64,000 nt of DNA from Chitinophaga niabensis (GTDB taxonomy: Bacteria > Bacteroidota > Bacteroidia > Chitinophagales > Chitinophagaceae). How positions within the stretch are numbered: the stretch's first letter is position 1; each line of letters opens with the position of its first letter. The notes under the pieces are model-generated. The model saw only the letters and a list, made by a program, of their open reading frames with translations. It was not told where the DNA came from and ran no database searches. The translations under genes were made by a program, and so were the position numbers. Positions 7,613-47,069 of the stretch are shown piece after piece. The DNA lies in the NCBI RefSeq assembly GCF_039545795.1, contig NZ_CP154260.1, positions 3,601,001-3,665,000 of the forward strand. The letters run 5' to 3'.

Positions 7613-8503
7613 TTAATTGAAAGAATTCCGGAATTCTACCGGAGAAAGACTGGTTTTGCTCTTGAATAATTTGCTGAATGACTGGGAATGTTCAAAGCCC
7701 AGCTCATACGCAATTTCACTAACGGTGAGGTCCGTAGTGGACAGTTTTTCCTTTGCCTTTTCGATCAGTTTATCGTGTATATGCTGTTGGGTACTTTGGC
7801 CGGTTAAGGTCTTCAGCATTACACTCAGGTAGTTGGGAGATACGTTTAATTCATTAGCAATGTACTGTACGGTGGGTATTCCATTTTCTTTCTGAAACCA
7901 GGAAGTAAGCACATCCTCCAGCTTCTCCAGGATCCTGTGATTACTGATCTTACGGGTGATGAACTGGCGCTGATAGAAACGTTCTGCATAGATAAGCAGG
8001 AGATCCAGCTGCGCAATGATCACATCCTGGCTGAATTTATCTATGCTCGCGTGATATTCCTGTGCGATGTTCTGTATCAGGCTAGTAATAGTCAGCTCTT
8101 CCTTTTCAGAAAGATGCAGGGCTTCATGAACCGCATAGCTGAAATACTCGTATTGTTTGATCTTTTTAGCCAGCGGGGTGTTCCATAAAAAGTCGGGATG
8201 CACGATCAGTAACCAGCCGGTATGGCTGAAATCGTCTGCTGCTTCTATAGAAAATACCTGGCCGGGGGAAATGAAGCTCATCAATCCTTCGTCAAAATCA
8301 TATACCTGCTGGCCGTACCGCATCTTGCAGTTAAAATTCCTTTTTAATGCAATGGAATAGAAATTATGTATAACGGTACCGGGTGAGCGTTTGATATCAT
8401 CGAAATTAACAACGCTGATCAGGGGATGCAGGGGTTTCGGCAGGTCCATATGCTGATGGTACTCGCTGATAGTCTTGATATTATGTGGCTGAGTGTTCTT
8501 CAC
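7613..8503 (-). CDS. AraC-family transcriptional regulator
   Basis: An N-terminal cupin-like sensing domain (about 15-180) has the Bacteroidota-typical opening EYHQHMDLPKPLHPLISVV. The C-terminal double HTH (about 195-296) contains YIANELNVSPNYLSVMLK and VSEIAYELGFEHSQSFSKLFK. No ATG lies at the N-terminus. I choose GTG 8503, because a perfect -7 box TACTTTTG ends at 8510 and would put the RNA start at or just before that codon; TTG 8512 is the alternative, giving 299 residues. Divergent from the AlkZ-like glycosylase gene and upstream of the NmrA-like gene. Likely a one-component switch for one of these; the ligand is unknown. Confidence 0.92.
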   Translation of the reverse strand: MKNTQPHNIKTISEYHQHMDLPKPLHPLISVVNFDDIKRSPGTVIHNFYSIALKRNFNCKMRYGQQVYDFDEGLMSFISPGQVFSIEAADDFSHTGWLLIVHPDFLWNTPLAKKIKQYEYFSYAVHEALHLSEKEELTITSLIQNIAQEYHASIDKFSQDVIIAQLDLLLIYAERFYQRQFITRKISNHRILEKLEDVLTSWFQKENGIPTVQYIANELNVSPNYLSVMLKTLTGQSTQQHIHDKLIEKAKEKLSTTDLTVSEIAYELGFEHSQSFSKLFKSKTSLSPVEFRNSFN

Positions 8504-8509
8504 GTCTTT

Positions 8510-8527
8510 CAAAAGTAATTATATTTG
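8510..8527. promoter_or_regulatory. Back-to-back divergent promoter (two -7 boxes)
   Basis: TACTTTTG on the minus strand (8517 to 8510) and TATATTTG on the plus strand (8520-8527) are both perfect TAnnTTTG boxes only 2 bases apart. The minus box has TTTC 20 bases upstream (-33-like). The first coding bases follow 6 bases (GTG 8503) and 8 bases (ATG 8536) after the boxes, so both mRNAs would be almost leaderless. Confidence 0.55.
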
Positions 8528-8535
8528 GGGGAAGT

Positions 8536-9549
8536 ATGAAAACCGAAGACATTATCCTTCAGCGGCTGCATACCCAGCAGCTGGCCAAACCTAACTATAA
8601 AGAAGCAGGAGAGGTAGTTTCCTGGCTCATTGCCATGCAGGCACAGGAGTATGCACATGCCAAATGGGCTATTCATCTCCGCTCCAAAGGACTAACAGAA
8701 AAGGCAATAGAACAATCCTTCAATGAGGGCATTTACCTCCGTACCCATCTCATGCGGCCTACCTGGCATTTTGTGCATCAGCAGGATATCCGCTGGCTGC
8801 TGCAACTCACTGCACCAAGGGTACATGCAGCCAATGCCTATTACTATAAACAACTGGAACTGGATACCAAATTGTTCTCCCGCAGTAATAAAGTACTGGA
8901 AAAAGCATTACAGGGCGGGAAACATCTGCAACGTACTGCTTTGGCAAAGGCACTAAAGGATGCTAAGATCATCGCTTCCGGGCCAAGGCTCGGTTATATC
9001 ATGATGTTTGCAGAACTGGAAGGGCTTATTTGCAGCGGCCCCCGGGAAGGCAAACAGTTCACCTATGCTTTGCTGGAAGAAAGGGTACCTCCTGTAAAAG
9101 CACTCAGCCGTTCAGAAGCGCTGGCGCAGTTTGTGCAAAGATACTTCACTACCAGGGGACCAGCTACTTTGCAGGACTTCGCTTATTGGTCCGGCTTAAC
9201 AATGAAAGATGCAAAAGAAGGCGCTGAGGCGCTTTCTGCGGACTTCGTTAAGGAAGGAGAATTAATATACCTCCCTGCTTCATTTGACAAGAAAGAAAAG
9301 ATCACACATACCTTCATTATGCCGGATTATGATGAATACGGCATGAGCTATAAAGACCGCCACGACATCTTCAACGAAGGCGCCCGTACCTTCTATTCCC
9401 ATATGATCATTGTGGATGGAAAGATTGCAGGTACGTGGAAAAAGAAGGACAATGACGGGCTGGATATGGACATATTCACAACACTGAACAAAACACAAAC
9501 AACAGCCTTAAAGAAGGCCACAGCGCGTTACCTGGCCTTTTGCAGGTAA
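8536..9549 (+). CDS. Winged-helix protein of the AlkZ/YcaQ DNA glycosylase family
   Basis: 337 residues, HTH_42 family, soluble. The N-terminal part carries Gln35-Ala-Gln37 in WLIAMQAQEYAHAKWAI. This matches the catalytic Q-x-Q motif of AlkZ-type glycosylases, which unhook or excise bulky alkylated bases; the YcaQ/AlkX branch has Q-x-D instead. LRTHLMRPTWHFV and TRGPATLQDFAYWSGL are further family stretches. ATG 8536 is preferred to in-frame GTG 8485, which would overlap the AraC gene and its promoter. AlkZ homologues protect producers of DNA-alkylating natural products or act as general repair enzymes; no biosynthetic genes are nearby, so general repair or environmental resistance is the better guess. 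Confidence 0.88.
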   Translation: MKTEDIILQRLHTQQLAKPNYKEAGEVVSWLIAMQAQEYAHAKWAIHLRSKGLTEKAIEQSFNEGIYLRTHLMRPTWHFVHQQDIRWLLQLTAPRVHAANAYYYKQLELDTKLFSRSNKVLEKALQGGKHLQRTALAKALKDAKIIASGPRLGYIMMFAELEGLICSGPREGKQFTYALLEERVPPVKALSRSEALAQFVQRYFTTRGPATLQDFAYWSGLTMKDAKEGAEALSADFVKEGELIYLPASFDKKEKITHTFIMPDYDEYGMSYKDRHDIFNEGARTFYSHMIIVDGKIAGTWKKKDNDGLDMDIFTTLNKTQTTALKKATARYLAFCR

Positions 9550-9591
9550 ACGGCACAAATATTGTACCCCAACCTCTTAAAACTACCCCAT

Positions 9592-9777
9592 ATGAATGTA
9601 AAACGCATCTTCGGCGCCGTCTTAACTGTTCTGGGTATTATAGGACTGATCTATGCCGGTTATGGCTTTGTTCAACACAGTGTCAAAACCCGTGAGTTAA
9701 TAGTAGTGGGGATCATCGGGTTGATCTTTTTCTTTTCGGGTATAGGGCTGGTGAAGAATACGAAGGATGAGGCATAA
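9592..9777 (+). CDS. Small two-helix membrane protein (DUF3185-like)
   Basis: 61 residues from ATG 9592 (upstream TTG 9562 is less likely). Two hydrophobic segments, residues 6-24 and 35-54, are separated by a short polar loop with HSVKTRE, and the tail is charged KNTKDEA. The glycine-rich LTVLGIIGLIYAGYGF and VVGIIGLIFFFSGIGLV resemble DUF3185-type inner-membrane proteins. Function unknown. It follows the glycosylase gene by 42 bases and is probably read through from it. Confidence 0.72.
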   Translation: MNVKRIFGAVLTVLGIIGLIYAGYGFVQHSVKTRELIVVGIIGLIFFFSGIGLVKNTKDEA

Positions 9778-9953
9778 GCCCATTACCTCACCTGGCAGTG
9801 ACCTTACTTCATACATTACTTTTACGGGTACTTTCAAAGGCTCTTTTGGCATGTTCCAACAGATGCCCGGGCTTCTTTAATACCCCATATAAATGTCTTA
9901 ATCCCCCCATGTCAAAGTCCGATTCACCCCCCTTCCGGGAAGTAACCGGACTT

Positions 9954-9961
9954 TACATTTG
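9954..9961 (+). promoter_or_regulatory. -7 box TACATTTG upstream of SRPBCC gene
   Basis: Perfect TAnnTTTG 35 bases before the ATG at 9997. The rest of the 219-base gap (9778-9996) holds only C- and T-rich sequence, with no clear hairpin and no -33 TTTG at the right distance. Confidence 0.5.
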
Positions 9962-9996
9962 TATTCCTATCTCATAACCATTTAAACTCAGTAAAT

Positions 9997-10494
9997 ATGA
10001 AAGGTCAGGATTTCACAACCAGTTTCCTGGTTGATAAAACACCACATGAGGCATTCGAAGCCATCACTAATTTCCGTGCCTGGTGGTCAGAAGATATCAA
10101 AGGAAGAACAAACATCCTTCATGAGGTTTTCCTTTATCAATATAAGGATATCCATCTGTGCAAGCTTAAGCTTATTGAGGAAGTTCCGGATAAAAAGCTG
10201 GTTTACCATGTTTTGGACAATCAATTCAGTGTATTTACAAAGGATAAAACAGAATGGATCAATACCCAGCTCGTTTTTGATATTTCAAGTGAAGACGGTA
10301 AAACAAAAGTAAAATTCACGCATGTGGGCCTCGTTCCGGAATATGAGTGTTATGAGGTTTGCCATGTTGCCTGGAGCACCTACATTAATCAGAGCCTGTA
10401 CAATCTGATCGCTACCGGCCAGGGACAGCCAACTCCTAAAGGAGAAGATGGTATAAACGCGGAGGTATTAAGAGAACGGAATTTAATCAACTGA
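9997..10494 (+). CDS. SRPBCC (START-like / AHSA1-type) domain protein
   Basis: 165 residues forming a single helix-grip domain. It opens KGQDFTTSFLVDKTPHEAFEAITNFRAWWSEDIKG and contains TQLVFDISSEDGKTKVKFTHVGLVPEYECY and a C-terminal long helix WSTYINQSLYNLIATG, all typical of the AHSA1-like SRPBCC group. These fold around a hydrophobic cavity and may bind lipids or small ligands. Cytoplasmic. Eleven bases separate it from the ICL/PEPM gene, so the two form an operon. The ligand cannot be read from the sequence. Confidence 0.88.
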   Translation: MKGQDFTTSFLVDKTPHEAFEAITNFRAWWSEDIKGRTNILHEVFLYQYKDIHLCKLKLIEEVPDKKLVYHVLDNQFSVFTKDKTEWINTQLVFDISSEDGKTKVKFTHVGLVPEYECYEVCHVAWSTYINQSLYNLIATGQGQPTPKGEDGINAEVLRERNLIN

Positions 10495-10505
10495 ACAGGA
10501 GAAAA

Positions 10506-11249
10506 ATGACAAACTACGAAAAGTTCCATCAGCTACACCATCAATCCACCCCGTTAATACTGGCCAACGTATGGAATGTGAAAAGTGCGCAAATAGCAGA
10601 AAAGAGTGGCTTCGCCGCAATAGCTACTTCCAGCGGGGCTATTGCTGAATCGCTCGGGTACAGGGACGGTGAGCAAATACCATTTGCGGAGTTATTATAT
10701 ATCATACAACGGATCAATGCCACTACGTCCATTCCCTTATCAGTAGACCTTGAAAGAGGATATTCGGATGATCCTGCAATATTGAATGATAACATTCAAA
10801 AGCTAATTGACAGCGGCGTTGCCGGTATAAACCTGGAAGATGCACAGGGAGAAGAGATCTATCTGAAAAAATTGAACCATATTAAAAACTACCTGGTCAA
10901 AACCAACCAGCAGTTATTTATTAATGCCAGAACAGACGCTTTCCTGCAAAAACTGCCAGCACCCCTGAAAACAACATTGATCAGAGCGGAACTATACAGA
11001 GAGGCGGGTGCCGATGGCCTGTTTGTACCTGGTGTTCAGGAGGCTGAAACAATTAAAGAGATCACCTCTTACACCACGCTGCCGGTGAATGTAGTTGGCG
11101 TTCCAAAAATTGCGTCCATTGCCGAATTAACAGATTATGGCGTAAAACGAATAAGCATGGCGGTATTATTATACAAAGCTACTTACAGGCATATGGAAAA
11201 ACTGGCGCAGGAAATTATGGATAAACAATCATTTGAAGCTTTATCTTAA
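10506..11249 (+). CDS. Isocitrate lyase / PEP mutase family protein
   Basis: 247 residues, a complete alpha/beta barrel of the ICL/PEPM superfamily. Features are LANVWNVKSAQIAEKSGF at the first strand, SSGAIAESLGY, metal-site Asp81 in SVDLERGYSDDP, Glu111-Asp112 in GINLEDAQG and FINARTDAF. The Cys-rich catalytic loop of true isocitrate lyase (KKCGH) is absent, so this belongs to the short branch related to 2-methylisocitrate lyase, oxaloacetate decarboxylase and PEP mutase; the reaction is not determined. Second gene of the SRPBCC operon, followed 4 bases later by the stump of an SDR gene. Confidence 0.9.
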   Translation: MTNYEKFHQLHHQSTPLILANVWNVKSAQIAEKSGFAAIATSSGAIAESLGYRDGEQIPFAELLYIIQRINATTSIPLSVDLERGYSDDPAILNDNIQKLIDSGVAGINLEDAQGEEIYLKKLNHIKNYLVKTNQQLFINARTDAFLQKLPAPLKTTLIRAELYREAGADGLFVPGVQEAETIKEITSYTTLPVNVVGVPKIASIAELTDYGVKRISMAVLLYKATYRHMEKLAQEIMDKQSFEALS

Positions 11250-11253
11250 AAAG

Positions 11254-11397
11254 ATGGACAGATTAAAAAATAAAGTAGCCCTGGTCTATGGTGGCGTGGG
11301 TAGTGCAGGGCTGGTCATAAACCAGCAAAAAAACAGCGGCTGTTTCAGCATTTCACTGAAACAGCCGCTATTTCCATACGTGGAATTTACAAATTAA
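11254..11397 (+). pseudogene. Truncated short-chain dehydrogenase start (about 21 codons left)
   Basis: ATG 11254 opens with MDRLKNKVALVYGGVGSAGLV, the start of a classical SDR: Arg-Leu-x-x-Lys-Val-Ala-Leu-Val, then a glycine-rich nucleotide loop. The likeness stops at about codon 21. The frame then runs through the terminator hairpin and ends TAA 11395-11397, overlapping the convergent lipoprotein gene by 4 bases. More than 90 percent of a normal 250-residue SDR is missing, including the YxxxK site. I read this as the remnant of a third gene of the SRPBCC-ICL operon, lost when the SusC/D side was joined on. A chance likeness is possible. Confidence 0.55.
11335..11369. terminator. Bidirectional terminator hairpin, 14-bp perfect stem
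   Basis: Arms 11335-11348 and 11356-11369 pair perfectly around a 7-base loop. An A-run precedes it (11327-11333), which serves as the T-tract for the minus strand, and ATTT follows on the plus strand. It separates the plus-strand SRPBCC operon from the end of the minus-strand SusC/D operon. Confidence 0.85.
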
Positions 11398-12812
11398 TTC
11401 TCCCTGATATAGATATCCGCAGGCACACCCGGAATACTATTCACCTGCTGCGGGTTTTCTCCATTATGCCCCACACTGGTATCCAGGTAATAGATACTTC
11501 CTTCCACACCGGCCACTAACAGGTTCCCGCCATTCAACACTTTCAGCATGGTCACTTTCTTTCCACCGAAAGTGGCATCCAGCGCCTTCACCTCATTGTT
11601 AACCGGGTTGTAGCGATAGATCTTATCGTTGGAAGAAAAGAAGATCACACCGATCGGGGAACTTTGCCATTTGGTATCCGGCATCAGCAGGCTGGCTGCG
11701 GGGAATTCTCTTTTATAAGAAGGCGTGAACGTTCTTTTATCTGCATTGAAATCAAGGCCAAACTTCAGTTCTATTTTCTTACCCACACTGTCCATCATGG
11801 CATAGAACTCATTATCCGTGAAGCGGGTCATGTAGAGCAGGTCCATTTTCAGGTTCTTGGGATCGAAAGAAGTGTTACCTAATACATTATAGCTGGTATC
11901 GAAGAATGCATTGGTGCTGAAGCGCAGGAATTGTTTTTTGGTGGCTTCAAAGCCAAAGAAATAACCATCGTTAGGGCGCTCATAAAGGTTATGCAGCACA
12001 TTGGGATGCAACTGGTAATTACCATCTACCGGTACTCCCCAAAAGCCGTAATAAGGCCAGAATGGTGCTGTTTCCGTAGCGCCGATGTACATTTTTCCAT
12101 TGAGGATAGCAGTGGTTACACCATTGATCATATTCAGGAAACTGTTCACCTTCAATACAGCAGGAGCGGTATAAAAGTTATCTGCCAGGTATTTGTTGCG
12201 TTGCAATGTGTTGGCATCAATCTGTACAGCACCGGTAGTGCCGCCGGTATAAGTGATCCAGAAAGAACTCAGCTGGTTCATGTAGAACTGGTTCCTTATA
12301 GGCACCAGTTGCATACCACCACCGGGCAATACTTCTTTGTTGATGGCATCATAGATATCAGGTTGTACCGTTCCATCAGGTTTAATGAAGGTGAGTACCG
12401 TTCTGTTGTTCTCATTGCTGAGCACCAGCACACCTCTTGTAAACTGTGTCTGCCCTTTGACAATAAACTTGAAGAAATATACCTGGCCGGTATTGTTATC
12501 CTTTACTTTCAGTAAAGCATTATAGCGGTTAGCGCCCAGGCCGAATACAATCCTCAATGATTGCCCCTCATAATCCACAGACATGGCCTTTTCCGGCACA
12601 TCTATCTTCCAGAAGCAGGAATAATCGTTTTTACCGGATTTCAGCTGTACTTCAGGGGTAATGATCAGGCTGTCTCCCACGATGGCTGCATAAGCAGTAT
12701 CCAGCCCTTTTACAACAGGATCCGGAATGTTGATGTAATCATAGTTGCCCTTGTCCTTGGCACAGGCGCCAAGGATGAACAACAGCAAAATATATAAGGA
12801 ATATTTTTTCAT
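11394..12812 (-). CDS. PKD-like family surface lipoprotein
   Basis: 472 residues. Lipoprotein signal with lipobox LGAC (Cys near residue 17), then KDKGNYDYINIPDPVVKGLDTAY. This is typical of the PKD-like lipoproteins that occur as the last gene of certain SusC/D operons. An Ig/PKD-like N-terminal region (about 30-130) is followed by a beta-propeller-like region with repeated FIKPDGT, LNGKMYIGATE, VLNGGNLLVAGVEGSIYYLDTS strands. Probably outer-leaflet, assisting capture by the SusC/D pair upstream (12829-18606). No catalytic motif. The operon ends here at the 14-bp hairpin. Confidence 0.85.
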   Translation of the reverse strand: MKKYSLYILLLFILGACAKDKGNYDYINIPDPVVKGLDTAYAAIVGDSLIITPEVQLKSGKNDYSCFWKIDVPEKAMSVDYEGQSLRIVFGLGANRYNALLKVKDNNTGQVYFFKFIVKGQTQFTRGVLVLSNENNRTVLTFIKPDGTVQPDIYDAINKEVLPGGGMQLVPIRNQFYMNQLSSFWITYTGGTTGAVQIDANTLQRNKYLADNFYTAPAVLKVNSFLNMINGVTTAILNGKMYIGATETAPFWPYYGFWGVPVDGNYQLHPNVLHNLYERPNDGYFFGFEATKKQFLRFSTNAFFDTSYNVLGNTSFDPKNLKMDLLYMTRFTDNEFYAMMDSVGKKIELKFGLDFNADKRTFTPSYKREFPAASLLMPDTKWQSSPIGVIFFSSNDKIYRYNPVNNEVKALDATFGGKKVTMLKVLNGGNLLVAGVEGSIYYLDTSVGHNGENPQQVNSIPGVPADIYIREN

Positions 12813-20433: not shown

Positions 20434-20455
20434 ACGGCATTAAAGCTTACCTTTG
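20425..20455 (+). promoter_or_regulatory. Promoter of DEAD-box gene, nearly leaderless
   Basis: TTTC (20425-20428), 19 bases, then TACCTTTG (20448-20455): a -33/-7 pair with one mismatch to TTTG-N19-TAnnTTTG. The ATG at 20461 follows after 5 bases, so RNA should start at or within a few bases of it. Confidence 0.6.
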
Positions 20456-20460: not shown

Positions 20461-21702
20461 ATGAAATTTGAACAATACCGCATATCAGAGGAGCTAAAGA
20501 GAAGTTTAGAAGAACTTGGGTTCAAACGCCCTACGGATATTCAATATAAGGCCATACCCTCCATCCTGAAAGGGGATGATGTATTAGCGATTGCTCAAAC
20601 CGGCACCGGTAAAACCGCTGCTTTTGCCATCCCCATCATCCAGTTATTACAACAACAAAGCCGTTCCCGCACCAAAGGAGAAGTGAAATGCCTCATTATG
20701 GTGCCTACCCGGGAACTGGCCGTACAGATAGGCGAAGTATTTAAAAAACTCGCCAAATATACCCGTGTGGATATTATGGGCCTTTTCGGCGGTGTAGAAC
20801 AGGAAGCCCAGATCGCCAAACTGGATAAAGGGGTAGACATCCTGATCGCCACACCCGGCCGGATGTTTGACCTGGTCAGCCAGGGGCACCTGGACCTCAG
20901 CCATGTACAGATCCTGGTGCTGGACGAAGCGGATCATATGCTGGACCTTGGTTTTATCAGGGATATCCGGGATGTACTGAAACACCTTCCCCGTATTCAC
21001 CAGACCCTCTTCTTTTCCGCTACCATTGATGAAGAGATTAAAGATATTGCCTATTCTGTGGTACGCAACCCCATCCGGATCCAGATCTCCCCGGAAGACC
21101 CCGTTTCCAGGAACGTGAGCCATTCCGTAGCCTATGTGTCTATGGACGATAAGCGCTTTTTCCTGGAAAGGCTGGTAAGGGAGTTCCCGGAGAATAAGAT
21201 CCTGGTGTTCGTAAGGACCAAAGTACGGGCAGAAAGGGTAGCCGCAGCCATGGAGCGGGTGAACATCAAAAGCCTCACCATGCATGGCGGTAAGGAACAG
21301 GGAGACCGGCTTACCGTAATGGACGAATTCAAAAAGGGGGAAGTGAAAGTACTGATCACCACAGATGTAAATGCCCGGGGCATTGATATCCCGGATGTGG
21401 AATACGTGGTGAACTACGATCTGCCGGATGAGCCGGAAAACTATGTGCACCGTGTGGGCCGTACAGGCCGCGGGGTAAAAAAAGGACAGGCTGTTTCTTT
21501 CTGCAGCGAGGAGGAAAAACCAGTGCTGGAAGCCATCCAGGCTTACCTGGGCAAACCCATCACTACCATGACCATTAATAAAGACGATTACCGGGAAACC
21601 ATCAGCTTTTCTGAGGAAACCCCTAACGATAACTGGAAGAAACTGATCGAGGACCACGAAAAAGCCACAAAAGATCTAAAACGGAAGAAGAAAAAGAAAT
21701 AA
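20461..21702 (+). CDS. DEAD-box ATP-dependent RNA helicase
   Basis: 413 residues. All motifs are present: Q motif near 20-28 (GFKRPTDIQ), motif I AQTGTGKT (45-52), Ia PTRELAVQ, II DEAD (155-158), III SAT, IV/V ILVFVRTK and TDVNARGIDIP, VI HRVGRTGR. It ends in a basic tail (KDLKRKKKKK) of the RhlE type that binds RNA. ATG 20461 is used; GTG 20455 is part of the -7 box. It unwinds RNA in ribosome assembly, mRNA decay or cold adaptation. Cytoplasmic. Independent of the neighbouring SusC/D operon. Confidence 0.96.
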   Translation: MKFEQYRISEELKRSLEELGFKRPTDIQYKAIPSILKGDDVLAIAQTGTGKTAAFAIPIIQLLQQQSRSRTKGEVKCLIMVPTRELAVQIGEVFKKLAKYTRVDIMGLFGGVEQEAQIAKLDKGVDILIATPGRMFDLVSQGHLDLSHVQILVLDEADHMLDLGFIRDIRDVLKHLPRIHQTLFFSATIDEEIKDIAYSVVRNPIRIQISPEDPVSRNVSHSVAYVSMDDKRFFLERLVREFPENKILVFVRTKVRAERVAAAMERVNIKSLTMHGGKEQGDRLTVMDEFKKGEVKVLITTDVNARGIDIPDVEYVVNYDLPDEPENYVHRVGRTGRGVKKGQAVSFCSEEEKPVLEAIQAYLGKPITTMTINKDDYRETISFSEETPNDNWKKLIEDHEKATKDLKRKKKKK

Positions 21703-22735: not shown

Positions 22736-22743
22736 TAAATTTG
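22736..22743 (+). promoter_or_regulatory. -7 box TAAATTTG upstream of epoxide hydrolase gene
   Basis: Perfect TAnnTTTG 21 bases before ATG 22765, right behind the terminator of the previous gene. No -33 TTTG at the expected spacing. Confidence 0.5.
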
Positions 22744-24605: not shown

Positions 24606-25024
24606 CTGAAGTGATGGGCGGAAATGAAATAACCTTCTTTATGATATACTTTATGCGCAGGATGTAACAGATGTCCTGAATCCAGCTGCACGGAATGGAA
24701 ACCGGCTGTTTTGGCTAATGACCTGATGTAACGCAGTAACAGAGAGGCATAACCTTTCCCCTGGTATTCCGGTAATGTGGCCAGATCATCAATATAAATA
24801 TGTTTACCGGAATGTAGTTTCTGCATGTAGCGGAAACCTGCGAAGGCTACAACCTTTGAGGGCTGATCATCTGCGTTGAGGTAAATGATGTGATAGTTTT
24901 CGCTCTGCATTTCTTTTACCTGTGCTACAATGTCTGTATGCAAAAGATGCGGGCGAAGGGAAAGGATCACTTCCCTGCAGGCTAATATAGCAGCATCGTC
25001 TGATGCGGTATGGACCGTTTTCAT
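24593..25024 (-). CDS. GNAT-family N-acetyltransferase
   Basis: 143 residues, one GNAT domain. Motif A is DDLATLPEYQGKGYASLLL with the acetyl-CoA loop Gln88-Gly-Lys-Gly-Tyr, followed by a VQLDSGHLLHPAHKVYHKEGY strand-helix end. Start codon overlaps the stop of the AhpD-like gene (TAATG), so the two are translationally coupled. Acceptor substrate not visible; small-molecule or drug acetylation is possible. Confidence 0.9.
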   Translation of the reverse strand: MKTVHTASDDAAILACREVILSLRPHLLHTDIVAQVKEMQSENYHIIYLNADDQPSKVVAFAGFRYMQKLHSGKHIYIDDLATLPEYQGKGYASLLLRYIRSLAKTAGFHSVQLDSGHLLHPAHKVYHKEGYFISAHHFSQPL

Positions 25025-25461
25025 TATTCAGGGATTCTGTGTGAGGAAACTCCAATGCGGTTCCAGGCATTGATGGCGATAATATGCATGAGCAGTTCTG
25101 CGGTTCCGGTTTTGCCGAAGTGTTCCAGTGCCTGCTGATACGTTTCTTCTGTTAAACCCTTTTGATGGATGAATGTAATTTCTTCCGTCATGGCCAGAAC
25201 GGTCTTCTCCTGTTCGGAGAATTGCGGGGCATCGCGCCATACGCTGATAAGGTAGATACGTTGTTCTGTTTCACCCAGTTCTCTTGCTTCAATAGTATGT
25301 TTATTAAGGCAATAAGCACAGCCGTTGATCTGGGAAGCCCTGATCTTAATGAGTTCCCGGTGAATGGGATCAATGCTGGTGGTGGTTTCAAATTTGTACA
25401 GGCCCAGCATGGCATTGTAGGCAGCGGGCAATATGTCTTTCAGGAGGAATCTTTCTTTCAT
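25024..25461 (-). CDS. Carboxymuconolactone decarboxylase / AhpD-like protein
   Basis: 145 residues, AhpD-like helical fold with C48-A-Y-C51 and His55 as in the copy at 3033-3461 (same spacing, different flanks), so a resolvable thiol pair. Peroxide or aldehyde detoxification is typical for the family. First gene of a two-gene operon with the GNAT protein. A -7 box lies 4 bases before its ATG and a TGGACCAT palindrome covers the region behind it, so it is probably repressor-controlled. Confidence 0.9.
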   Translation of the reverse strand: MKERFLLKDILPAAYNAMLGLYKFETTTSIDPIHRELIKIRASQINGCAYCLNKHTIEARELGETEQRIYLISVWRDAPQFSEQEKTVLAMTEEITFIHQKGLTEETYQQALEHFGKTGTAELLMHIIAINAWNRIGVSSHRIPE

Positions 25462-25465: not shown

Positions 25466-25473
25466 CAAATTTA
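25466..25473 (-). promoter_or_regulatory. -7 box TAAATTTG, 4 bases before ATG of AhpD-like gene
   Basis: Perfect TAnnTTTG on the minus strand. The remaining 4 bases (TACC) to the ATG at 25461 predict a leaderless mRNA. Confidence 0.55.
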
Positions 25474-25525: not shown

Positions 25526-25584
25526 GTGATCATTTTTTGATCTGGATCAAAGGAAAGATCATTTGGCTGCAGCAACTTTGTGAC

Positions 25585-26934
25585 ATGGCAAAACGTTACC
25601 TCTTCACTGTGCTGCCCACCAATGACCTGGGATTACTGACACGCTCGCTGCCGGTAGCCAAAGCATTGCAGAAAAAAGGGAAGACCGTTATGTTCTCCCA
25701 TCCGGCCAGGGCTCCCCGCAAACTTATTGCAGATGCAGGTTTTGAGAACCTGCTGCCTACACATCCTTTGTATGAGATCAGCTTTAATGGTTTACACTGG
25801 AAAGATATTTTCACTTCTTCTGCAGTGAGGAACCATCATGGCGGTGCATTTAATTTCATAAAAGAACTGGTGAAGTCCATTCCTTACCGCGCAGCGCCGG
25901 CCAGCCATGAAATATGGGATATGGACCATGCCTTTGCCATCACGGGTTTACTGAATGCCAATTTCATCAAAGCGCAGTGTGAAGTATATATGCAGGTGAT
26001 CCGTGCATCTGCAGCAGATGTGGTGGTGGATTTCTGGAATCCTTTTGCCTGTATTGCAGCAAAGAAACTGGGCGTTCCGCTGATCACGATCAACCAGGGA
26101 GATGCATTACCCGGCACAAAAGGTTTTATCTGGTGGAAGGAAAGACCGGAGGGCACTCCTTCCGTTGTACCTGCCATCAATAAAGTATTACGTTCTTATG
26201 GGTTAGCGGCAATAAAACAGGTGGAAGAGATCACCAGGGGCGACCTGTCTCTTGTTACAGGCATGCCGGAAACAGATCCATTACAGGGAGATGATCATCG
26301 TTACATAGGCCCTTTGCTGTGGCAGGACTCGCGGATACCTCAGCCAGCCTGGCTACAGAACATACCGGACGACAAACCGCTTGTATGGCTGTATACCAGC
26401 AACCCTTCCTACAATGGCAGAAGCAGAATCTTTGATTCAGATAAAATGCTGCAGCCTTGCTTTGATGCACTGGCAGATGAAGATTATTATGTAGTGGTCA
26501 CAACAGGACATCATCCTTTGCCAAAATCCATTAAGGTGCCTGCGAACTTTATGCAGCTGCCTTATGTGCCGGGTTTATTTATGGCGGAAAGAAGTGATCT
26601 GCTGATCCATCATGGTGGCTATGGTTCCTGCCAGACGGGACTTTATTGCGGAACACCTTCTCTCATCTTCCCCACTTTTTCTGAACGGGAAAGTAATGCC
26701 AGGAGGATGCAGGCATTGGGTGCGGCAGAGTTTATACTACCACATGAGTATGCAGCAGAAACGATTAAAAATAAAGTCAAACAACTCATTCATTCACCTG
26801 CATATAGTACTGCAGCTAAAGCACATGGCAATCAACTGAAAAGTTATGGCGGTATTACAAAAGCCGTTGAGCTGATAGAACAATTTGTTCCGCCCAATGA
26901 CTGCGAGGGATGGCCGGAGTTCTTCTACAGATAG
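25585..26934 (+). CDS. UDP-glycosyltransferase (GT1, MGT-like)
   Basis: 449 residues from ATG 25585; the frame upstream to 25162 is antisense to the AhpD-like gene and rejected. GT-B fold: N-terminal Rossmann half (LFTVLPTNDLGLLTRSLPVAKALQKKGK) and C-terminal donor-binding half with DLLIHHGGYGSCQTGLYCGTPSL and FPTFSERESNARRMQALGAAEFI, the signature region of macrolide-type and related glycosyltransferases. It transfers sugar from a nucleotide donor to a small lipophilic acceptor; the acceptor is not known. Box CAACTTTG lies 4 bases before the ATG. Its 3' end overlaps the convergent EreA/ChaN-like gene by 10 bases. Confidence 0.88.
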   Translation: MAKRYLFTVLPTNDLGLLTRSLPVAKALQKKGKTVMFSHPARAPRKLIADAGFENLLPTHPLYEISFNGLHWKDIFTSSAVRNHHGGAFNFIKELVKSIPYRAAPASHEIWDMDHAFAITGLLNANFIKAQCEVYMQVIRASAADVVVDFWNPFACIAAKKLGVPLITINQGDALPGTKGFIWWKERPEGTPSVVPAINKVLRSYGLAAIKQVEEITRGDLSLVTGMPETDPLQGDDHRYIGPLLWQDSRIPQPAWLQNIPDDKPLVWLYTSNPSYNGRSRIFDSDKMLQPCFDALADEDYYVVVTTGHHPLPKSIKVPANFMQLPYVPGLFMAERSDLLIHHGGYGSCQTGLYCGTPSLIFPTFSERESNARRMQALGAAEFILPHEYAAETIKNKVKQLIHSPAYSTAAKAHGNQLKSYGGITKAVELIEQFVPPNDCEGWPEFFYR

Positions 26935-28029: not shown

Positions 28030-28578
28030 TTATGAAGCTAAAGGCACTGCTTGTTTTGCAAAGAATTCTGCGATCTGCTCCCAGTTATCAAACCTGTTAT
28101 AATCCTCGTAATTGGCATTGTGCGGTTGGGAGAACAGCAACCTTTCGCCATTGAAATACTTAAGGTTCTTGTCGTAATCATCGATCATGTAATCTGCCTG
28201 CACAATGGTTTTAAGACCACAGAACACCATATTCTTCCAACTGATGAAGGGGAAGTGCTCATTCAGCCATTCTACTTTTTCTGAGAGGGATTGTGGAAAT
28301 TCTACCGCAGCGGAAACAATGAACACCTCGTATTCTTCCATCAGGGCCTTGATCGCTTCCTGGCTGCCAGGCATTACCGGGGCCGTTCTGAAGAAACCGG
28401 GGGTATGCAGGAACTCACGGATCAATTCTCCGTTGGAGAAACCTGTAGGTTCGGGTTTGCCATTCAGCTGTTCCACCGGCACCAGTTCTCCTGTGCGTTT
28501 TGCGTACCAGTCTATGTAATGGGAAACAATATCCGCCATTACGCCGTCCATATCTATTGCTATTCTTTTTCTTGCCAT
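28030..28578 (-). CDS. 5'(3')-deoxyribonucleotidase-like HAD phosphatase
   Basis: 182 residues, HAD fold of the NT5C type: Asp9-x-Asp11 in IAIDMDGVMADI (nucleophile and acid), a capping helix region with GFFRTAPVMPGSQEAIKAL, motif II VSAAVEFPQ and the metal site DYMIDDYDKN. Removes phosphate from (deoxy)nucleoside monophosphates in the cytoplasm. Promoter box TAACTTTG lies 16 bases upstream and is covered by a TGCAATATT palindrome shared with the divergent DeoR gene, so control by that repressor is likely. Confidence 0.9.
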   Translation of the reverse strand: MARKRIAIDMDGVMADIVSHYIDWYAKRTGELVPVEQLNGKPEPTGFSNGELIREFLHTPGFFRTAPVMPGSQEAIKALMEEYEVFIVSAAVEFPQSLSEKVEWLNEHFPFISWKNMVFCGLKTIVQADYMIDDYDKNLKYFNGERLLFSQPHNANYEDYNRFDNWEQIAEFFAKQAVPLAS

Positions 28579-28587
28579 ATTCTGCTA

Positions 28588-28658
28588 TTTATTGCAAAGT
28601 TATGCAATATTCGGTAATTCGCCAATAGGAAAACTGCAATATTTTACATAATATTGCA
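28588..28658. promoter_or_regulatory. Two TGCAATATT palindromes between nucleotidase and deoR genes
   Basis: Site 1: TTTATTGCA (28588-28596), 6 bases, TGCAATATT (28603-28611), covering the nucleotidase -7 box TAACTTTG (28595-28602, minus). Site 2: TGCAATATT (28635-28643), 6 bases, AATATTGCA (28650-28658), covering a deoR -7-like TAATATTG (28649-28656). TTATGCAATATT (28600-28611) and AATATTGCATAA (28650-28661) are an exact 12-base inverted pair. Both boxes lie 16 bases from their ATG. Confidence 0.7.
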
Positions 28659-28672
28659 TAAAACAGCAAAAG

Positions 28673-29419
28673 ATGTTAAGAGAAGAGCGCCTTGAATTCA
28701 TTCTCAGGAAGTTACAGACGGACCAGAAAGTGCTGCAAACGGAGTTAAGTAACGATCTGCAGGTTTCTGAAGATACGGTACGCCGGGACCTGGATTCCCT
28801 GGCGCAAAATGGCCTTTTAATAAAAGTGAGAGGTGGTGCCATCCCCCACTCCCCCAATCCATATCCTTTTAAAGAAAGATTGCAGTATCATGAAGATGAT
28901 AAGAAGAACATTGCCCGTAAGGCATTGAGCTTATTACATAATGGTCAGACGGTGATCCTCGATGGCGGTACTTCTACCCTTACCCTGGTGAAATTATTTC
29001 CGCCTAACCTCCAACTTACGGTTGTTACCAATAGTGTGCCTATTGTAGCACAGCTGATAGAACATCCCGGCGTGCAGGTGATCTTTACAGGAGGAAGGGT
29101 GAATAAAGATTCTCAGACATCCGGTGGACTGAACACCATCCGCACAATTCAAAACCTGCGGGCAGACCTCTGTTTCCTGGGTGTTTGCAGTTTACACCCT
29201 GATGCCGGTGTAACAGGACTTGATTTTGAAGAAGCAGAAGTAAAATCAGCGATGGTAAAGGCAGCAAATAAAGTAGTAGCGCTGGCTACCAGTGACAAGA
29301 TGGGCACCGGGGAGACTTTTAAAGTATGTGAGATCACAGATATTGATACCATTGTTACAGATAATCCTTCGCTGGAACTTTTTAATCCTTATATTAAGTT
29401 GGGTTTACAGGTGATGTAG
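28673..29419 (+). CDS. DeoR/GlpR-family transcriptional repressor
   Basis: 248 residues. N-terminal DeoR HTH (1-57: MLREERLEFILRKLQTDQKV...LQVSEDTVRRDLDSLAQNG) and a C-terminal ISOCOT-type sugar-phosphate sensor with VILDGGTSTLTLVKLF, VVTNSVPIVAQL, VIFTGGRVN and the conserved LGVCSLHPDAGVTG and ALATSDKMG. It senses a sugar phosphate. Divergent from the nucleotidase gene across two symmetric operators, so autoregulation is likely. Overlaps the convergent BrkB gene by 26 bases. Confidence 0.93.
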   Translation: MLREERLEFILRKLQTDQKVLQTELSNDLQVSEDTVRRDLDSLAQNGLLIKVRGGAIPHSPNPYPFKERLQYHEDDKKNIARKALSLLHNGQTVILDGGTSTLTLVKLFPPNLQLTVVTNSVPIVAQLIEHPGVQVIFTGGRVNKDSQTSGGLNTIRTIQNLRADLCFLGVCSLHPDAGVTGLDFEEAEVKSAMVKAANKVVALATSDKMGTGETFKVCEITDIDTIVTDNPSLELFNPYIKLGLQVM

Positions 29420-41105: not shown

Positions 41106-41113
41106 CAAAGCTA
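41106..41113 (-). promoter_or_regulatory. -7 box TAGCTTTG, 4 bases before the barrel gene ATG
   Basis: Perfect TAnnTTTG on the minus strand, then CGGT and ATG. The barrel gene therefore has its own promoter and an almost leaderless mRNA. Confidence 0.55.
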
Positions 41114-43226: not shown

Positions 43227-43230
43227 GCCG

Positions 43231-43238
43231 TAAATGTA
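43231..43238 (-). promoter_or_regulatory. -7-like box TACATTTA, 4 bases before the kinase ATG
   Basis: TAnnTTTA, one mismatch from TAnnTTTG, on the minus strand followed by CGGC and ATG. Same close spacing as at the barrel gene. Confidence 0.4.
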
Positions 43239-43293
43239 CGTGCAGATCAGTATTCGTGCATCAATGTTTTAACACTCTTTAACAAATCTCCTG

Positions 43294-45534
43294 TTACTTT
43301 ATCACCAAAGGCGTTTCCACGCCTAACAGGTGCCGCACAAAGAAATTCCGCTTCCGCAACCTGCCATAAGGGCCTCCATCACTATGCCCCATTCCCGGGA
43401 TCGGTAAGAACTCAAACTCCTTATTACATTTGATCAGTGCATCCGCTACGCGGTAGGTAGATTCCGGTGGCACATTGGTATCTGCTTCTCCCACGATCAG
43501 CAGCAACTTGCCCTGTAATTTATCCACGTTGGTGATGTTGCTCTGCTCATCGTAATGTTTGCCAACAGGATACCCCATCCACTGTTCGTTCCACCATTGC
43601 TTATCCACCCGGTTATCATGGCAGCCGCAGGAAGAAACGGCCGCTTTATAAAACTCAGGATGGAACAGTAAAGCCGCCAATGCATTCTGGCCGCCTGCGG
43701 AGGTTCCATACAGGCCCACGCGGTTTGTATCTGCATAGGGGTATTTCGTGCCGAGGGCTTTCATCCATAAGATCCTGTCAGGGAAACCGGCATCTGCAAT
43801 ATTCTTCCAGCAAACATCATGAAAGGCTTTTGAACGGTTGGCTGTGCCCATACCATCTATCTGCACTACAATGAAACCGAGTTCTGCCATGCTTTGCATT
43901 TCCCCGAAAGTTCCCATGAAAGTTTTAGGCACAAAAGCATCATGCGGACCGGCGTAGATATTTTCAATGATGGGATATTTTTTGGCAGGGTCAAATTTAG
44001 AAGGCCTGCAAACAATGCCCCAGATGTCTGTAACCCCATCCCTTCCCTTTGCTACAAAAGGCTCTACCGGCGGTATGCCTGTTTTGAAAAATTCCGTAGC
44101 ATCTGCGCGTTCTATCTCCGCTATTTTCTTACCGTTACTGGTCAGCCGCAGTTCTGTAACAGGCGGCATATTCACCTGTGAATAGGTATCGAGATAATAT
44201 TTCTTATCATTAGAAAGCGCGATCACATGCTGCCCTTTTTCCGGTGTCATCTGTACCAGGTTTTTACCATCAAATCCAATGCGGTAGTAATGGATAAAAT
44301 AAGGGTCTTCACCTGCGTGCATGCCACTGGCCCTGAACCATATTTCTCTCTTCTTTTCATCCACACTATCAATGTTACGCACTACCCATTCTCCCTGCGT
44401 AATTGTATTTTTAATATTGCCGCTGAGGCCATCTATCAAATACAAATGCCGCCAGCCATCCTTTTCAGAGGACCATACTATTTCATTTGTAGCAGGTAGA
44501 TACTCCGTGAAGATGCGCGATTCATAAATAAAGGTTTTGGCTTTTTCATCCAGCAATGTACGTGTGGTCCCAGATTGTGCATCCACTTCAATGATCCTGA
44601 AACGCTGATGCCCTCGGTCTACTTTCTCATAGCTGAAATACCTTGGATCATCCTTGCGCCAATGTAATACAGGGGCTTCAAAAAAGTCCAGCAGTTCTGT
44701 GTTTACTTTTATGCCACTGCGTTGCCCAATGGGGAACAGGTGCATCTCATAAGTAGTGAAAGGATCGCCGGGTTGTTTGTAATTCTGCGAGCGTAATTGT
44801 CCGCGTTTAGTACCTGATACACTGGTGAGTACATAATATACCAGGGTATCCAGTGCAGGATTGGTAAGATAACCTACCAGATATTTGCTATCCGGGGACC
44901 AGGCCAACTCTGCATAAGGTTTTTCTTTAGTGCCATTGGTGGTATATTGTATGGTGTCTTTAGTTGCTGCGTTACGGATGAATACATTCCCTTCTTTGAT
45001 GAAGGCATGCCACTTCTTATCCGGCGATTCACTTTTTGTGGAAAAACTTTGCCAGCGGCTGCGGCGGAATACTCTATCCGGGTATACACGTTGAGGGAAA
45101 CTATCTTTCTTTGTGAGCTGATAGGTATTCAGATCACACTCCCAGTATTTCCCTTTTACTTCCAGCATGGCCGTTTTGGTACCGATATCCATCCGGGTGA
45201 TATTCAAACGCAGTGGGTCCTGTTCCAGGGCAGCAGCCAGTTTTGCATGATCAAATGCAGGGCGTTTTTTACCCGTGGCTGCATCTGCGAGGATGTATTC
45301 CTTTACTGAATCCTTGAGGGTGTTCACATACCAGAAACTCCGGCCATCTACAGACCAGTTAGCTCTCACCGTACTTTTGAATACAGTGTTCCGGCTGATG
45401 CTATCCAATAGGCGGGCATGTTTATACCGGCCTGTCATTTCCTCCTCATCCGGGTGGTAAGGGAGTTGTTGCGCGCTGAGGGAACTGGTCCGGATCAGCA
45501 GCAGCATGATACAGAAGAACTTATGCTTCAGCAT
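43294..45534 (-). CDS. S9B dipeptidyl peptidase IV-like secreted protease
   Basis: 746 residues. Signal peptide about 1-21 (ends SLSAQ). N-terminal DPP-IV beta-propeller (about 85-480, e.g. WSPDSKYLVGYL, SFYE-like VWSSEKDGWRHLYLID) and C-terminal alpha/beta hydrolase. Catalytic Ser612 is in GTSAGG, with Asp in VGEADTNVPPES and His in GMGHSDGG. Cleaves dipeptides, often X-Pro/X-Ala, from peptides in the periplasm or outside. Divergent from an amino-acid permease, which could take up the products. Confidence 0.93.
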   Translation of the reverse strand: MLKHKFFCIMLLLIRTSSLSAQQLPYHPDEEEMTGRYKHARLLDSISRNTVFKSTVRANWSVDGRSFWYVNTLKDSVKEYILADAATGKKRPAFDHAKLAAALEQDPLRLNITRMDIGTKTAMLEVKGKYWECDLNTYQLTKKDSFPQRVYPDRVFRRSRWQSFSTKSESPDKKWHAFIKEGNVFIRNAATKDTIQYTTNGTKEKPYAELAWSPDSKYLVGYLTNPALDTLVYYVLTSVSGTKRGQLRSQNYKQPGDPFTTYEMHLFPIGQRSGIKVNTELLDFFEAPVLHWRKDDPRYFSYEKVDRGHQRFRIIEVDAQSGTTRTLLDEKAKTFIYESRIFTEYLPATNEIVWSSEKDGWRHLYLIDGLSGNIKNTITQGEWVVRNIDSVDEKKREIWFRASGMHAGEDPYFIHYYRIGFDGKNLVQMTPEKGQHVIALSNDKKYYLDTYSQVNMPPVTELRLTSNGKKIAEIERADATEFFKTGIPPVEPFVAKGRDGVTDIWGIVCRPSKFDPAKKYPIIENIYAGPHDAFVPKTFMGTFGEMQSMAELGFIVVQIDGMGTANRSKAFHDVCWKNIADAGFPDRILWMKALGTKYPYADTNRVGLYGTSAGGQNALAALLFHPEFYKAAVSSCGCHDNRVDKQWWNEQWMGYPVGKHYDEQSNITNVDKLQGKLLLIVGEADTNVPPESTYRVADALIKCNKEFEFLPIPGMGHSDGGPYGRLRKRNFFVRHLLGVETPLVIK

Positions 45535-45549
45535 ATAACTGTTTTAATC

Positions 45550-45577
45550 TCCTGTAAAGTGGGCACATTTTACAGGA
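45550..45577. promoter_or_regulatory. Inverted repeat TCCTGTAAA-N10-TTTACAGGA
   Basis: A perfect 9-bp inverted repeat with 10-base spacer in the 155-base divergent region between the DPP-IV-like and permease genes, 16 bases behind the peptidase start. Candidate operator for a dimeric regulator; it could instead form a hairpin in the peptidase leader. Confidence 0.5.
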
Positions 45578-45676
45578 ATTGATTTACGCATTTTAACCAT
45601 AAGTGTACTGATTTTATCCTTTCAATTTTGAGCAGAAACGGTTAATAATTACAAAGTGTTCTCCTCTCCTGCTGGT

Positions 45677-45684
45677 TAGCTTTA
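45677..45684 (+). promoter_or_regulatory. -7-like box TAGCTTTA, 5 bases before the permease ATG
   Basis: TAnnTTTA (one mismatch from TAnnTTTG) at 45677-45684; ATG 45690 follows after 5 bases. Fits the close-spacing pattern seen at several other genes of the window. Confidence 0.4.
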
Positions 45685-45689
45685 CTTTA

Positions 45690-47069
45690 ATGAATAACTT
45701 TAAACCCTCCCTCAGCCTCTTAGACGCTACCATGGTAGTAGCAGGCAGCATGATCGGCTCCGGTATTTTTATTGTAAGTGCAGACATTACCCGGCTCACC
45801 GGAAGTTCCGGCTGGCTTTTGCTGGTATGGCTTATCACCGGCTTTATGACCCTCACGGCGGCATTGAGTTATGGAGAACTGAGTGCCATGTTCCCCAAAG
45901 CAGGCGGCCAGTATGTATACCTGAAAGAAGCCTACAATCCGCTAACGGGTTTTGTGTATGGATGGAGTTTCTTTACGGTGGTACAAACCGCTACCATTGC
46001 GGCAGTAGGTGTTGCCTTTGCTAAATTCACGGCTTATATTATTCCTTATTTCAGCGAAGACATTCTTGTGTGGAAGAACATTTCCCGGGCGCAGTTATTA
46101 TCTATCGCCGTGATCTTCCTGTTGACCTTTATTAATACCAGGGGTATCAAAAGCGGCAAACTGGTGCAGACCACTTTAACCCTTATCAAACTATTCAGCC
46201 TGGCTGCCCTGATCATTTGTGGCCTGGTGTTATTAAAACCGGATGTATGGGCTGCCAACTGGGAAAATCCCTGGCACCTGCATTCCATCACCACCACCGG
46301 ATCTTACACCATCATCGCAGCATTAGGTGCTATTGCAGCAGCTATGGTAGGTTCCATTTTCAGCAGCGATTCCTGGAACAATATCGCTTTCATTGCAGGA
46401 GAAGTAAAGAACCCGCAGCGCAACATTGGCCTCAGCTTATTCCTGGGTACACTGATAGTTACCTTCCTGTATATCCTCGCTAACATTACTTACATCGCGG
46501 TATTGCCTTTACAGGAAATTGCTTTTGCGGAGAAAGACAGGGTGGCCGTAGCAGCTTCGCATGTGATGTTCGGCAAAGCAGGAACTGTATTGATCGCGGC
46601 CATGATCATGATCTCTACTTTTGGCTGCAACAATGGCCTGATACTGGCGGGTGCCAGGGTATATTATACCATGGCCAATGATGGTTTGTTCTTCCGCAGG
46701 GCGGGGAAACTCAACCAGGCAGCCGTTCCTGAATTTGCTTTGTGGATCCAGTGTATTGTTGCCTGTGCCTGGAGTATCAGCGGTAAATATGGCCAGTTAT
46801 TGGATATGATCTCTTTTGTAGTAGTGGGTTTCTATATGCTTACCATTGCAGGCATTTTTATCCTGCGCAAAAAAAGACCGAATGCCGAACGCCCGTATAA
46901 AGCATTCGGCTACCCGGTACTACCCATCATTTATATTGTGATGGGCCTGAGTTTCTGTATCCTGCTGATCATTTACAAACCCGGTTTTACCTGGCCCGGA
47001 TTGCTCATTGCACTTGCAGGGATCCCTGTTTATTATCTTGTTACTTCGTCCCGAACTGGTAAACCGTAG
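45690..47069 (+). CDS. APC-family amino-acid permease
   Basis: 459 residues, twelve hydrophobic segments. The start SLLDATMVVAGSMIGSGIFIVSADI carries the substrate-site GSMIGSGIF motif of LAT/APC transporters; FPKAGGQYVYLKEAYNP and AFIAGEVKNPQRNIGLSLFLG are further family marks. Amino-acid uniport, antiport or proton symport across the inner membrane. Its substrate is not readable; the divergent dipeptidyl peptidase suggests use on peptide-derived amino acids. The 3' end overlaps the convergent galM-like gene by 29 bases. Confidence 0.93.
   Translation: MNNFKPSLSLLDATMVVAGSMIGSGIFIVSADITRLTGSSGWLLLVWLITGFMTLTAALSYGELSAMFPKAGGQYVYLKEAYNPLTGFVYGWSFFTVVQTATIAAVGVAFAKFTAYIIPYFSEDILVWKNISRAQLLSIAVIFLLTFINTRGIKSGKLVQTTLTLIKLFSLAALIICGLVLLKPDVWAANWENPWHLHSITTTGSYTIIAALGAIAAAMVGSIFSSDSWNNIAFIAGEVKNPQRNIGLSLFLGTLIVTFLYILANITYIAVLPLQEIAFAEKDRVAVAASHVMFGKAGTVLIAAMIMISTFGCNNGLILAGARVYYTMANDGLFFRRAGKLNQAAVPEFALWIQCIVACAWSISGKYGQLLDMISFVVVGFYMLTIAGIFILRKKRPNAERPYKAFGYPVLPIIYIVMGLSFCILLIIYKPGFTWPGLLIALAGIPVYYLVTSSRTGKP

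Follow-up and report, generated by a model that had tools for sequence, protein, structure and literature searches.

The ribosome studied in Bacteroidota hides its anti-Shine-Dalgarno (anti-SD) sequence. SD-independent initiation is reported as the rule in this phylum (PMC6847099, PMC10783764), and in Flavobacterium johnsoniae the distance from the -7 promoter box to the RNA start was given as 4–5 nt (PMC6847099). Of the leaders reported for this species 87% were >10 nt (PMC6847099), about 3.7% of 5′ UTRs in Bacteroides thetaiotaomicron were <10 nt (PMC7366714), and 5.5% of Flavobacterium psychrophilum mRNAs were leaderless (PMC9723704). The general idea of leaderless genes in the phylum is already in print (PMC3160421, PMC5397173); one set of computed predictions, which was confined to Pribnow-like boxes and acknowledged this as a limit, placed them in 1 of 37 Bacteroidetes/Chlorobi genomes (2.4%; PMC3160421). 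In Mycobacterium and Deinococcus, leaderless mRNAs were reported for >20% and up to 60% of genes (PMC9031893).

A stretch of 64,000 nt from Chitinophaga niabensis (GCF_039545795.1, NZ_CP154260.1, positions 3,601,001–3,665,000 of the forward strand), here called the window, was analysed together with 80 further stretches, giving a sample of 1.664 Mb (23%) of the 7.2-Mb genome and 1014 called genes. Spacing was counted as the bases between the end of a TAnnTTTG box and the start codon, and boxes at spacings of 4–8 were designated near. Like B. thetaiotaomicron, F. psychrophilum and F. johnsoniae, this member of the same phylum has the same -7 box and, by prediction, some leaderless mRNAs or very short leaders. 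Such mRNAs were measured, and rare, in Bacteroides and Flavobacterium, whereas here the near class would make up about a third of the recognisable promoters (as counted in genes whose recognisable box lies no more than 100 nt away), as judged by sequence only. Mycobacterium and Deinococcus are resembled in a (here predicted) AUG at or very near the mRNA 5′ end and in a large gene share, but the box here is the Bacteroidetes -7 TAnnTTTG, and the alternative to it, a leadered mRNA, has no SD. In Mycobacterium and Deinococcus the leadered mRNAs are mostly SD-led. Leaderless mRNA is a known kind, and its abundance, the spacing gap and the lineage pattern are new; TAnnTTTG spacing, the gap and a lineage split within the phylum appear in the available text of neither computed study (PMC3160421, PMC5397173).

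Near boxes in the window

The original prediction named eight near boxes, five perfect and three with one mismatch, and all their positions and spacings proved exact. Perfect boxes were TATATTTG (8520..8527, + strand), 8 bases before ATG 8536 of an AlkZ-like glycosylase; TACTTTTG (8510..8517, - strand), 6 bases before GTG 8503 of an AraC-type regulator; TACCTTTG (20448..20455, + strand), 5 bases before ATG 20461 of a DEAD-box helicase; TAAATTTG (25466..25473, - strand), 4 bases before ATG 25461 of a carboxymuconolactone decarboxylase family protein; and TAGCTTTG (41106..41113, - strand), 4 bases before ATG 41101 of an outer-membrane beta-barrel protein. A G at the second n, as in the 41101 box, is reported as rare among measured promoters (PMC6847099). 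Boxes with one mismatch were TACATTTA (43231..43238, - strand), 4 bases before ATG 43226 of a histidine kinase; TAGCTTTA (45677..45684, + strand), 5 bases before ATG 45690 of an amino acid permease; and CAACTTTG (25573..25580, + strand), 4 bases before ATG 25585 of a glycosyltransferase-like gene. The last had been counted in the class but is probably not a member, because CAnnTTTG showed no enrichment at 4–8 (1 vs 2.4 expected). For the 45690 box, the type TAnnTTTA was enriched at 4–8 in the sampled genome.

Four of the five genes proposed as examples with longer leaders had perfect boxes: TAACTTTG (28595..28602, - strand), 16 bases before ATG 28578; TAAATTTG (22736..22743, + strand), 21 bases before ATG 22765; TACATTTG (5014..5021, + strand), 22 bases before ATG 5044; and TACATTTG again (9954..9961, + strand), 35 bases before ATG 9997. 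The fifth, 28673, had no perfect box within 70 nt.

With the starts chosen by our own gene caller, 3 of 42 genes in the window were near (8536, 20461 and 41101; shuffle mean 0.175, maximum 2). Two of the five perfect cases fell outside this count because the caller missed the gene 25024–25461 and favoured ATG 8449 over GTG 8503 for the AraC-type regulator. GTG 8503 was assigned by hand as an exception to ATG, and it aligned with ATG in orthologues (e.g. L192, L196 and L198).

Box spacing and promoter character in the sampled genome

Among the 1014 sampled genes, spacings of 4, 5, 6, 7 and 8 were found before 18, 10, 4, 4 and 3 genes, respectively, with the peak at 4. The lower edge was sharp (no gene at 0–3), no gene fell at 9–11 and three at 12–14, and a second, broad group began at ~15 bases; the gap at 9–14 in called genes had a P of 4.7e-10. 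Enrichment of the 4–8 spacing over a shuffled control had been set beforehand as the test; run on 23% of the genome, it gave 39 near genes against a mean of 3.19 and a maximum of 10 in 200 dinucleotide shuffles. These were 3.8% of all called genes, a rough percentage because our caller misses genes.

The excess was also seen without gene calls, when ATGs opening at least 60 codons were counted 4–8 bases past a box: 60 were found from 776 boxes, and control motifs gave 8 from 868, 22 from 724 and 13 from 680. In this count the 9–14 zone was at control level (22 vs 17–21), with no depletion. Of the 18 single-mismatch box types, 16 had no clear excess at 4–8; the exceptions were TAnnTTTA (23 vs 3.6 expected, including 10 at spacing 4 and 7 at spacing 5) and TAnnTTAG (7 vs 1.25 expected).

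The near boxes shared the AT-rich upstream element of the leadered boxes and had promoter character. The A+T content at the five positions 4–8 nt upstream of the box was 0.754 for near boxes, 0.752 for leadered boxes and 0.457 for 222 intragenic boxes. The form TAHHTTTG was present in 36 of 39 near boxes, which together with the AT-rich element near -18 matches promoters of sigma-A (sigma-ABfr type). A -33 TTG was weak in both promoter groups (7/39 near and 5/66 leadered boxes; 15/222 intragenic), and a -33 TTTG element is reported as little evident in F. johnsoniae too (PMC6847099). A genome-wide pattern demanding the -33 TTG diluted the signal (86 vs 61 in the reversed control) and was dropped.

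All 39 near genes started with ATG, compared with 872 of 972 (P 0.027), and no in-frame start was present upstream in 27 of them.

Orthologues and lineages

Five orthologue searches found no match at the set thresholds in 28, 25, 23, 27 and 46 of 59 genomes, and at most 30 loci were read per search. The helicase orthologues showed both groups: in 79 loci the nearest perfect box was at 4–7 in 11, at 8–16 in none, at 17–25 in 19 and at 30–52 in 11, and was absent from 38. Its spacing of 5 at 20461 was identical in the relative G163. The helicase protein itself was matched in 18 of 24 further genomes. Of 13 other loci of the histidine kinase, 11 had a perfect near box, at 4 in seven and at 7 in four, and one more had TATCTTTA at 4; the start codon was 3 codons further upstream in 10 of the 11 perfect-box loci.

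Other near boxes were kept less evenly. The perfect box of the 8536 glycosylase was absent in the nearest relative, G163; among more distant orthologues it was at 4 in two (L168 and L172) and only at 22–26 or beyond in three (L166, L181 and L185). Orthologues of 25461 and 41101 bearing a perfect box were mostly leadered: those of 25461 all were, among the matches listed (19, 30, 37 and 39), and for 41101 the box was at 5 in G163 (L252) and at about 21–24 in several more distant ones. The leadered genes 5044, 22765 and 28578 had spacings of 22, 20 and 16 in G163, where 9 boxes were found at 4–8 before 220 genes. Conservation of the near class is partial: some relatives retain it or switch it as a whole, and others have lost it. 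The near class was strong in the window's class, in Cytophagales and in family f22; in most of the other sampled families it was weaker or missing.

Alternative explanations and a proposed mechanism

That TAnnTTTG merely matches AT-rich upstream DNA by chance or composition is scarcely credible. The motif is short and occurs 47 times in the window on both strands, but none of the 200 shuffles exceeded 10, against 39 observed, and six control motifs had no peak at 4–8. Chance is refuted for the near class; it may still explain individual members, e.g. 25585. Misplaced start codons are a very unlikely alternative, by which the true starts would lie downstream behind ordinary leaders, leaving the box-adjacent ATG unused. 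A next in-frame ATG was found within 5 codons in 3 of 39 near genes, and Pfam left the start unfixed for 23 of the 36 near proteins scanned, in which no match began by residue 12 (in the other 13 one did). Start calling, however, was blind to upstream sequence, its median confidence was 3.26 for near genes versus 1.87 for genes without a box, and the next in-frame ATG was at least 11 codons off in 36 of 39. The conserved N-termini of the helicases and the joint shift of box and start codon in the kinase orthologues also argue against misplacement, which would leave the peak at 4–5 and the empty spacings 0–3 and 9–11 unexplained.

The near boxes could instead be secondary or inactive, with the real promoters further upstream and the genes leadered. 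Read-through is possible: 34 near genes had a called upstream neighbour, which was on the same strand in 21 and, in 5 of those, <20 nt away; such close neighbours were, however, no commoner than in genes without a box (5/34 vs 169/828). Distant promoters are improbable, given the AT-rich promoter element of the near boxes and the finding of another perfect box at 12–100 in only 1 of 39 near genes; in the helicase orthologues the box was either near or at least 17 bases away, as if one promoter moves.

The data are best read as two groups of housekeeping (sigma-A-type) promoters, of which the near one very probably gives leaderless or near-leaderless mRNAs read from a 5′ AUG. The original prediction of a distinct near-leaderless class was supported, with predicted RNA starts, by the strong enrichment at 4–8 and the almost empty 9–14 zone in called genes, and the strength of the class depended on lineage. 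In the near group the box ends 4–8, mostly 4–5, bases before the start codon; polymerase starting 4–5 nt past it, as published for Flavobacterium, would place the mRNA 5′ end at the AUG or at most ~4 nt upstream. By analogy with leaderless mRNAs elsewhere, the ribosome and initiator tRNA would then be placed directly on the 5′ AUG. Boxes of the second group, at least ~15 bases away, would give leaders of the usual SD-less kind, about 10 nt long or longer. Intermediate leaders would be selected against because they are, presumably, too long for 5′-AUG recognition yet not long enough for loading that depends on a leader. The near boxes had also been taken to need an SD-independent route of initiation; SD-independence is already the rule in the phylum, and therefore the route required would be a leader-independent one.

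We lean towards a joint reading in which the Chitinophaga lineage, Cytophagales and f22 run both leaderless 5′-AUG and SD-less leadered initiation, leaders of ~5–10 nt are forbidden, and single genes switch by promoter moves of ~15–20 nt. If so, leaderless mRNAs would serve that third of recognisable promoters, including those of DNA-repair and RNA-modification genes, as a predicted second way of starting protein synthesis and a natural comparison for translation start after loss of SD use. The 5′-end maps found for the phylum were those of Bacteroides and Flavobacterium, where leaderless mRNAs are rare (none among the literature matches listed was for Chitinophaga or near relatives), and in a large branch nearby their use appears to be routine. 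The proposed forbidden leader length is open to direct reporter testing, and gene-start annotation could gain from the rule that TAnnTTTG or TAnnTTTA ends 4–5 bases before ATG.

The composition of codons 2–7 of near genes was unremarkable by eye. The first 45 nt of these genes folded more weakly than those of genes without a box (-4.30 vs -5.78 kcal/mol, P 0.01).

Spacing of the -7 box before start codons

The window spans positions 3601001-3665000 on one 7.2-Mb contig. On re-reading its sequence, the eight -7 boxes (TAnnTTTG or one-mismatch forms) that the original prediction had placed 4-8 bases before start codons were all exact in position and spacing (bases from box end to start codon). 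Its longer-leader examples were exact in four of five cases; 28673 had no perfect box within 70 nt. The genes behind the eight boxes were all ordinary, encoding an AlkZ-like glycosylase, an AraC-type regulator, a DEAD helicase, a carboxymuconolactone decarboxylase family protein, an outer-membrane barrel, a glycosyltransferase-like protein, a histidine kinase and an amino acid permease.

Eighty stretches of 20 kb from the C. niabensis genome were analyzed together with the window (1.664 Mb, 23%), and 1014 genes were called by a script scoring coding potential and start-codon type, the box never being consulted. No TAnnTTTG box ended 0-3 bases before these genes, 18 ended at 4, 10 at 5, 4 at 6, 4 at 7 and 3 at 8; none lay at 9-11, one each at 12, 13 and 14, 9 at 15-17 and 27 at 18-22, after which the tail fell. 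The 39 genes with a box at 4-8 (near genes) compared with a mean of 3.19 and a maximum of 10 in 200 dinucleotide shuffles, the kind of enrichment that the original prediction required. Six control motifs (five rearrangements of the box and its reverse complement) gave no peak at 4-8, their counts being 3-8 over the first ten positions and at most 12 in the bins that followed. TAnnTTTA peaked at 4-8 like TAnnTTTG (23 vs 3.6 expected) and TAnnTTAG was also enriched there (7 vs 1.25). CAnnTTTG was not enriched at 4-8 in the sampled genes (1 vs 2.4 expected), and thus the one-mismatch example at 25585 was unsupported.

ATGs opening at least 60 codons were also counted downstream of each of 776 boxes of the stricter form TAHHTTTG, without gene calls. 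At 4-8 there were 60 (20 at spacing 4), compared with 8 after 868 sites, 22 after 724 and 13 after 680 for three control motifs, and therefore the near peak was independent of gene calls. In the 9-14 zone 3 boxes were found before called genes against 30 expected from the flanking rate (P = 4.7e-10), an emptiness that leans on the gene calls, since the count made without them was at control level with no depletion (22 vs 17, 21 and 17).

Promoter character and predicted messages

Over the five bases that precede the box by 4-8 nt, A+T content was 75.4% in the near group and 75.2% in the leadered group (box about 15 or more bases away), compared with 45.7% for 222 boxes inside genes; a Flavobacterium johnsoniae study describes an AT-rich element near -18, in the same place (PMC6847099). 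C directly followed the box in 21/39 near and 33/66 leadered cases, and a -33 TTG was weak in both groups alike. A second perfect box at 12-100 was found for only one of the 39 near genes.

All 39 near genes started with ATG, vs 872/972 of the others (P = 0.027); in 27, reading back in frame met a stop before any other start codon, and 36 had their next in-frame ATG at least 11 codons downstream. Among 36 near proteins scanned, 13 had a Pfam match starting by residue 12, including MutS domain I (residue 9), RecR (8), CdaA (10), DNA alkylation repair enzyme (10) and short-chain dehydrogenase (12); for the remaining 23, Pfam was little informative on start position.

The near-start boxes are thus a real observation. 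If RNA starts 4-5 nt beyond the box, as given for F. johnsoniae (PMC6847099), spacing 4 would make the A of AUG the first transcribed base, and spacings 5-8 would leave leaders of 0-4 nt. The empty positions 0-3 fit, because RNAs made from boxes there would not contain the complete start codon, and the gap at 9-14 points to poor translation of messages with leaders of about 5-10 nt. Elsewhere, as a review describes, 70S ribosomes load directly on a 5' AUG (PMC9031893); the same route might serve in the C. niabensis lineage. Judged from box positions, this is a known kind of message, leaderless mRNA, predicted in unexpected abundance. After background subtraction ~36 near boxes were left, with 64 at 9-59 and 14 at 60-99, so that, of the promoters recognisable within 100 nt, roughly one in three would be of the near type. 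In published RNA studies, ~3.7% of B. thetaiotaomicron 5' UTRs were shorter than 10 nt (PMC7366714), F. psychrophilum had 5.5% leaderless mRNAs (PMC9723704), and 87% of F. johnsoniae leaders were longer than 10 nt (PMC6847099); these are RNA data, whereas the third in C. niabensis is a sequence estimate.

Conservation and lineage distribution

The distinct near-leaderless class of the original prediction was supported as a property of the lineage, and not something peculiar to the window; this analysis adds the evidence from spacing, the gap and the contrast between lineages. Relatives with protein matches to window genes nearly all bore the same-genus label, and the best named matches of the DEAD-box helicase were Chitinophaga genomes (identity up to 86%; the matches may not include the source genome or one very close to it). 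Upstream sequence was available for 79 of 80 helicase loci, which are related, so that counts are not independent: the nearest perfect box lay at 4-7 in 11, 8-16 in none, 17-25 in 19 and 30-52 in 11, and 38 had none. In 13 further histidine kinase loci, a perfect box lay at 4 in seven and at 7 in four; of the other two, one had TATCTTTA at 4 and the second, a distant paralogue, carried TAATTTTA at 9. The start codon of most of these loci was three codons farther upstream than that of the window gene, indicating that the box moved with the start codon. Orthologues of other window genes searched were mixed (near, leadered or without a perfect box) among the loci listed; one AraC-type orthologue (L192) had a box with a spacing of 17 when counted to the aligned ATG; should the ATG slightly upstream of it be the start, the spacing would be 11, which falls in the gap.

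Between C. niabensis and a near relative (G163), N-terminal comparison was possible for 71 sampled genes, of which nine had a perfect box no more than 50 nt away in at least one of the genomes. The helicase (5 in both) and a GATase-like gene (8 in both) kept near spacing, and four leadered genes kept theirs within 1 nt. The histidine kinase had a perfect box at 4 in G163 and TACATTTA in the window; the AlkZ gene had no perfect box in G163. One gene (L136, 11303-12292, minus strand), with the box at 25 in C. niabensis and at 5 in G163, apparently switches between the two arrangements.

Whole-genome counts of TAHHTTTG-N4-ATG and of the N10 form were compared for 118 genomes from the phylum, N10 being an impure background in genomes with short leaders. 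The C. niabensis genome had 134 vs 37; N4 exceeded N10 in all 29 genomes labelled with its family, order or class (2346 vs 1131), and the other 89 gave 2189 vs 1686 (2047 vs 1655 without family f22). This family (G027, G059, G086, G101, G105 and G113), outside the window's class, was strongly enriched (142 vs 31), the highest ratio among families sampled. Families f10 (116 vs 61) and f19 (80 vs 49), also outside, were raised too, so the pattern is one of degree rather than all-or-none. Ratios were low in the three largest families outside the class (f14, 1.09, P = 0.07; f15, 1.28, P = 0.02; f21, 1.28, P = 1e-4), and their N18-22 counts exceeded N10, as expected for leadered promoters. Among named genomes, seven Chitinophaga, Flavihumibacter and [Flexibacter] gave 668 vs 284, seven Cytophagales 394 vs 185, one Saprospiraceae 115 vs 64, five of Bacteroidales/Marinilabiliales type 366 vs 320, and five other MAGs ratios of 1.0 to 1.9. 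By gene calling, 9 near boxes preceded 220 genes in G163, and none preceded 188 genes in Plebeiobacterium (P = 0.0013 vs the C. niabensis sample), where 17 leadered boxes lay at 12-45.

Divergent gene pairs

At window positions 8503-8536, the start codons of the divergent AraC-type regulator and AlkZ-like glycosylase genes were just 32 bp apart, and their -7 boxes, both predicted to give near-leaderless messages, stood back to back with 2 bp between, so that the two promoters may be mutually exclusive. Divergent MutS and SpoU-type methylase genes (L108, 15852-19067), 84 bp apart, both had a box at exactly 4. The divergent promoter region at window positions 28578-28673 carried repeated AATATTGCA / TTGCAATA elements, a possible regulator site, partly kept in G163.
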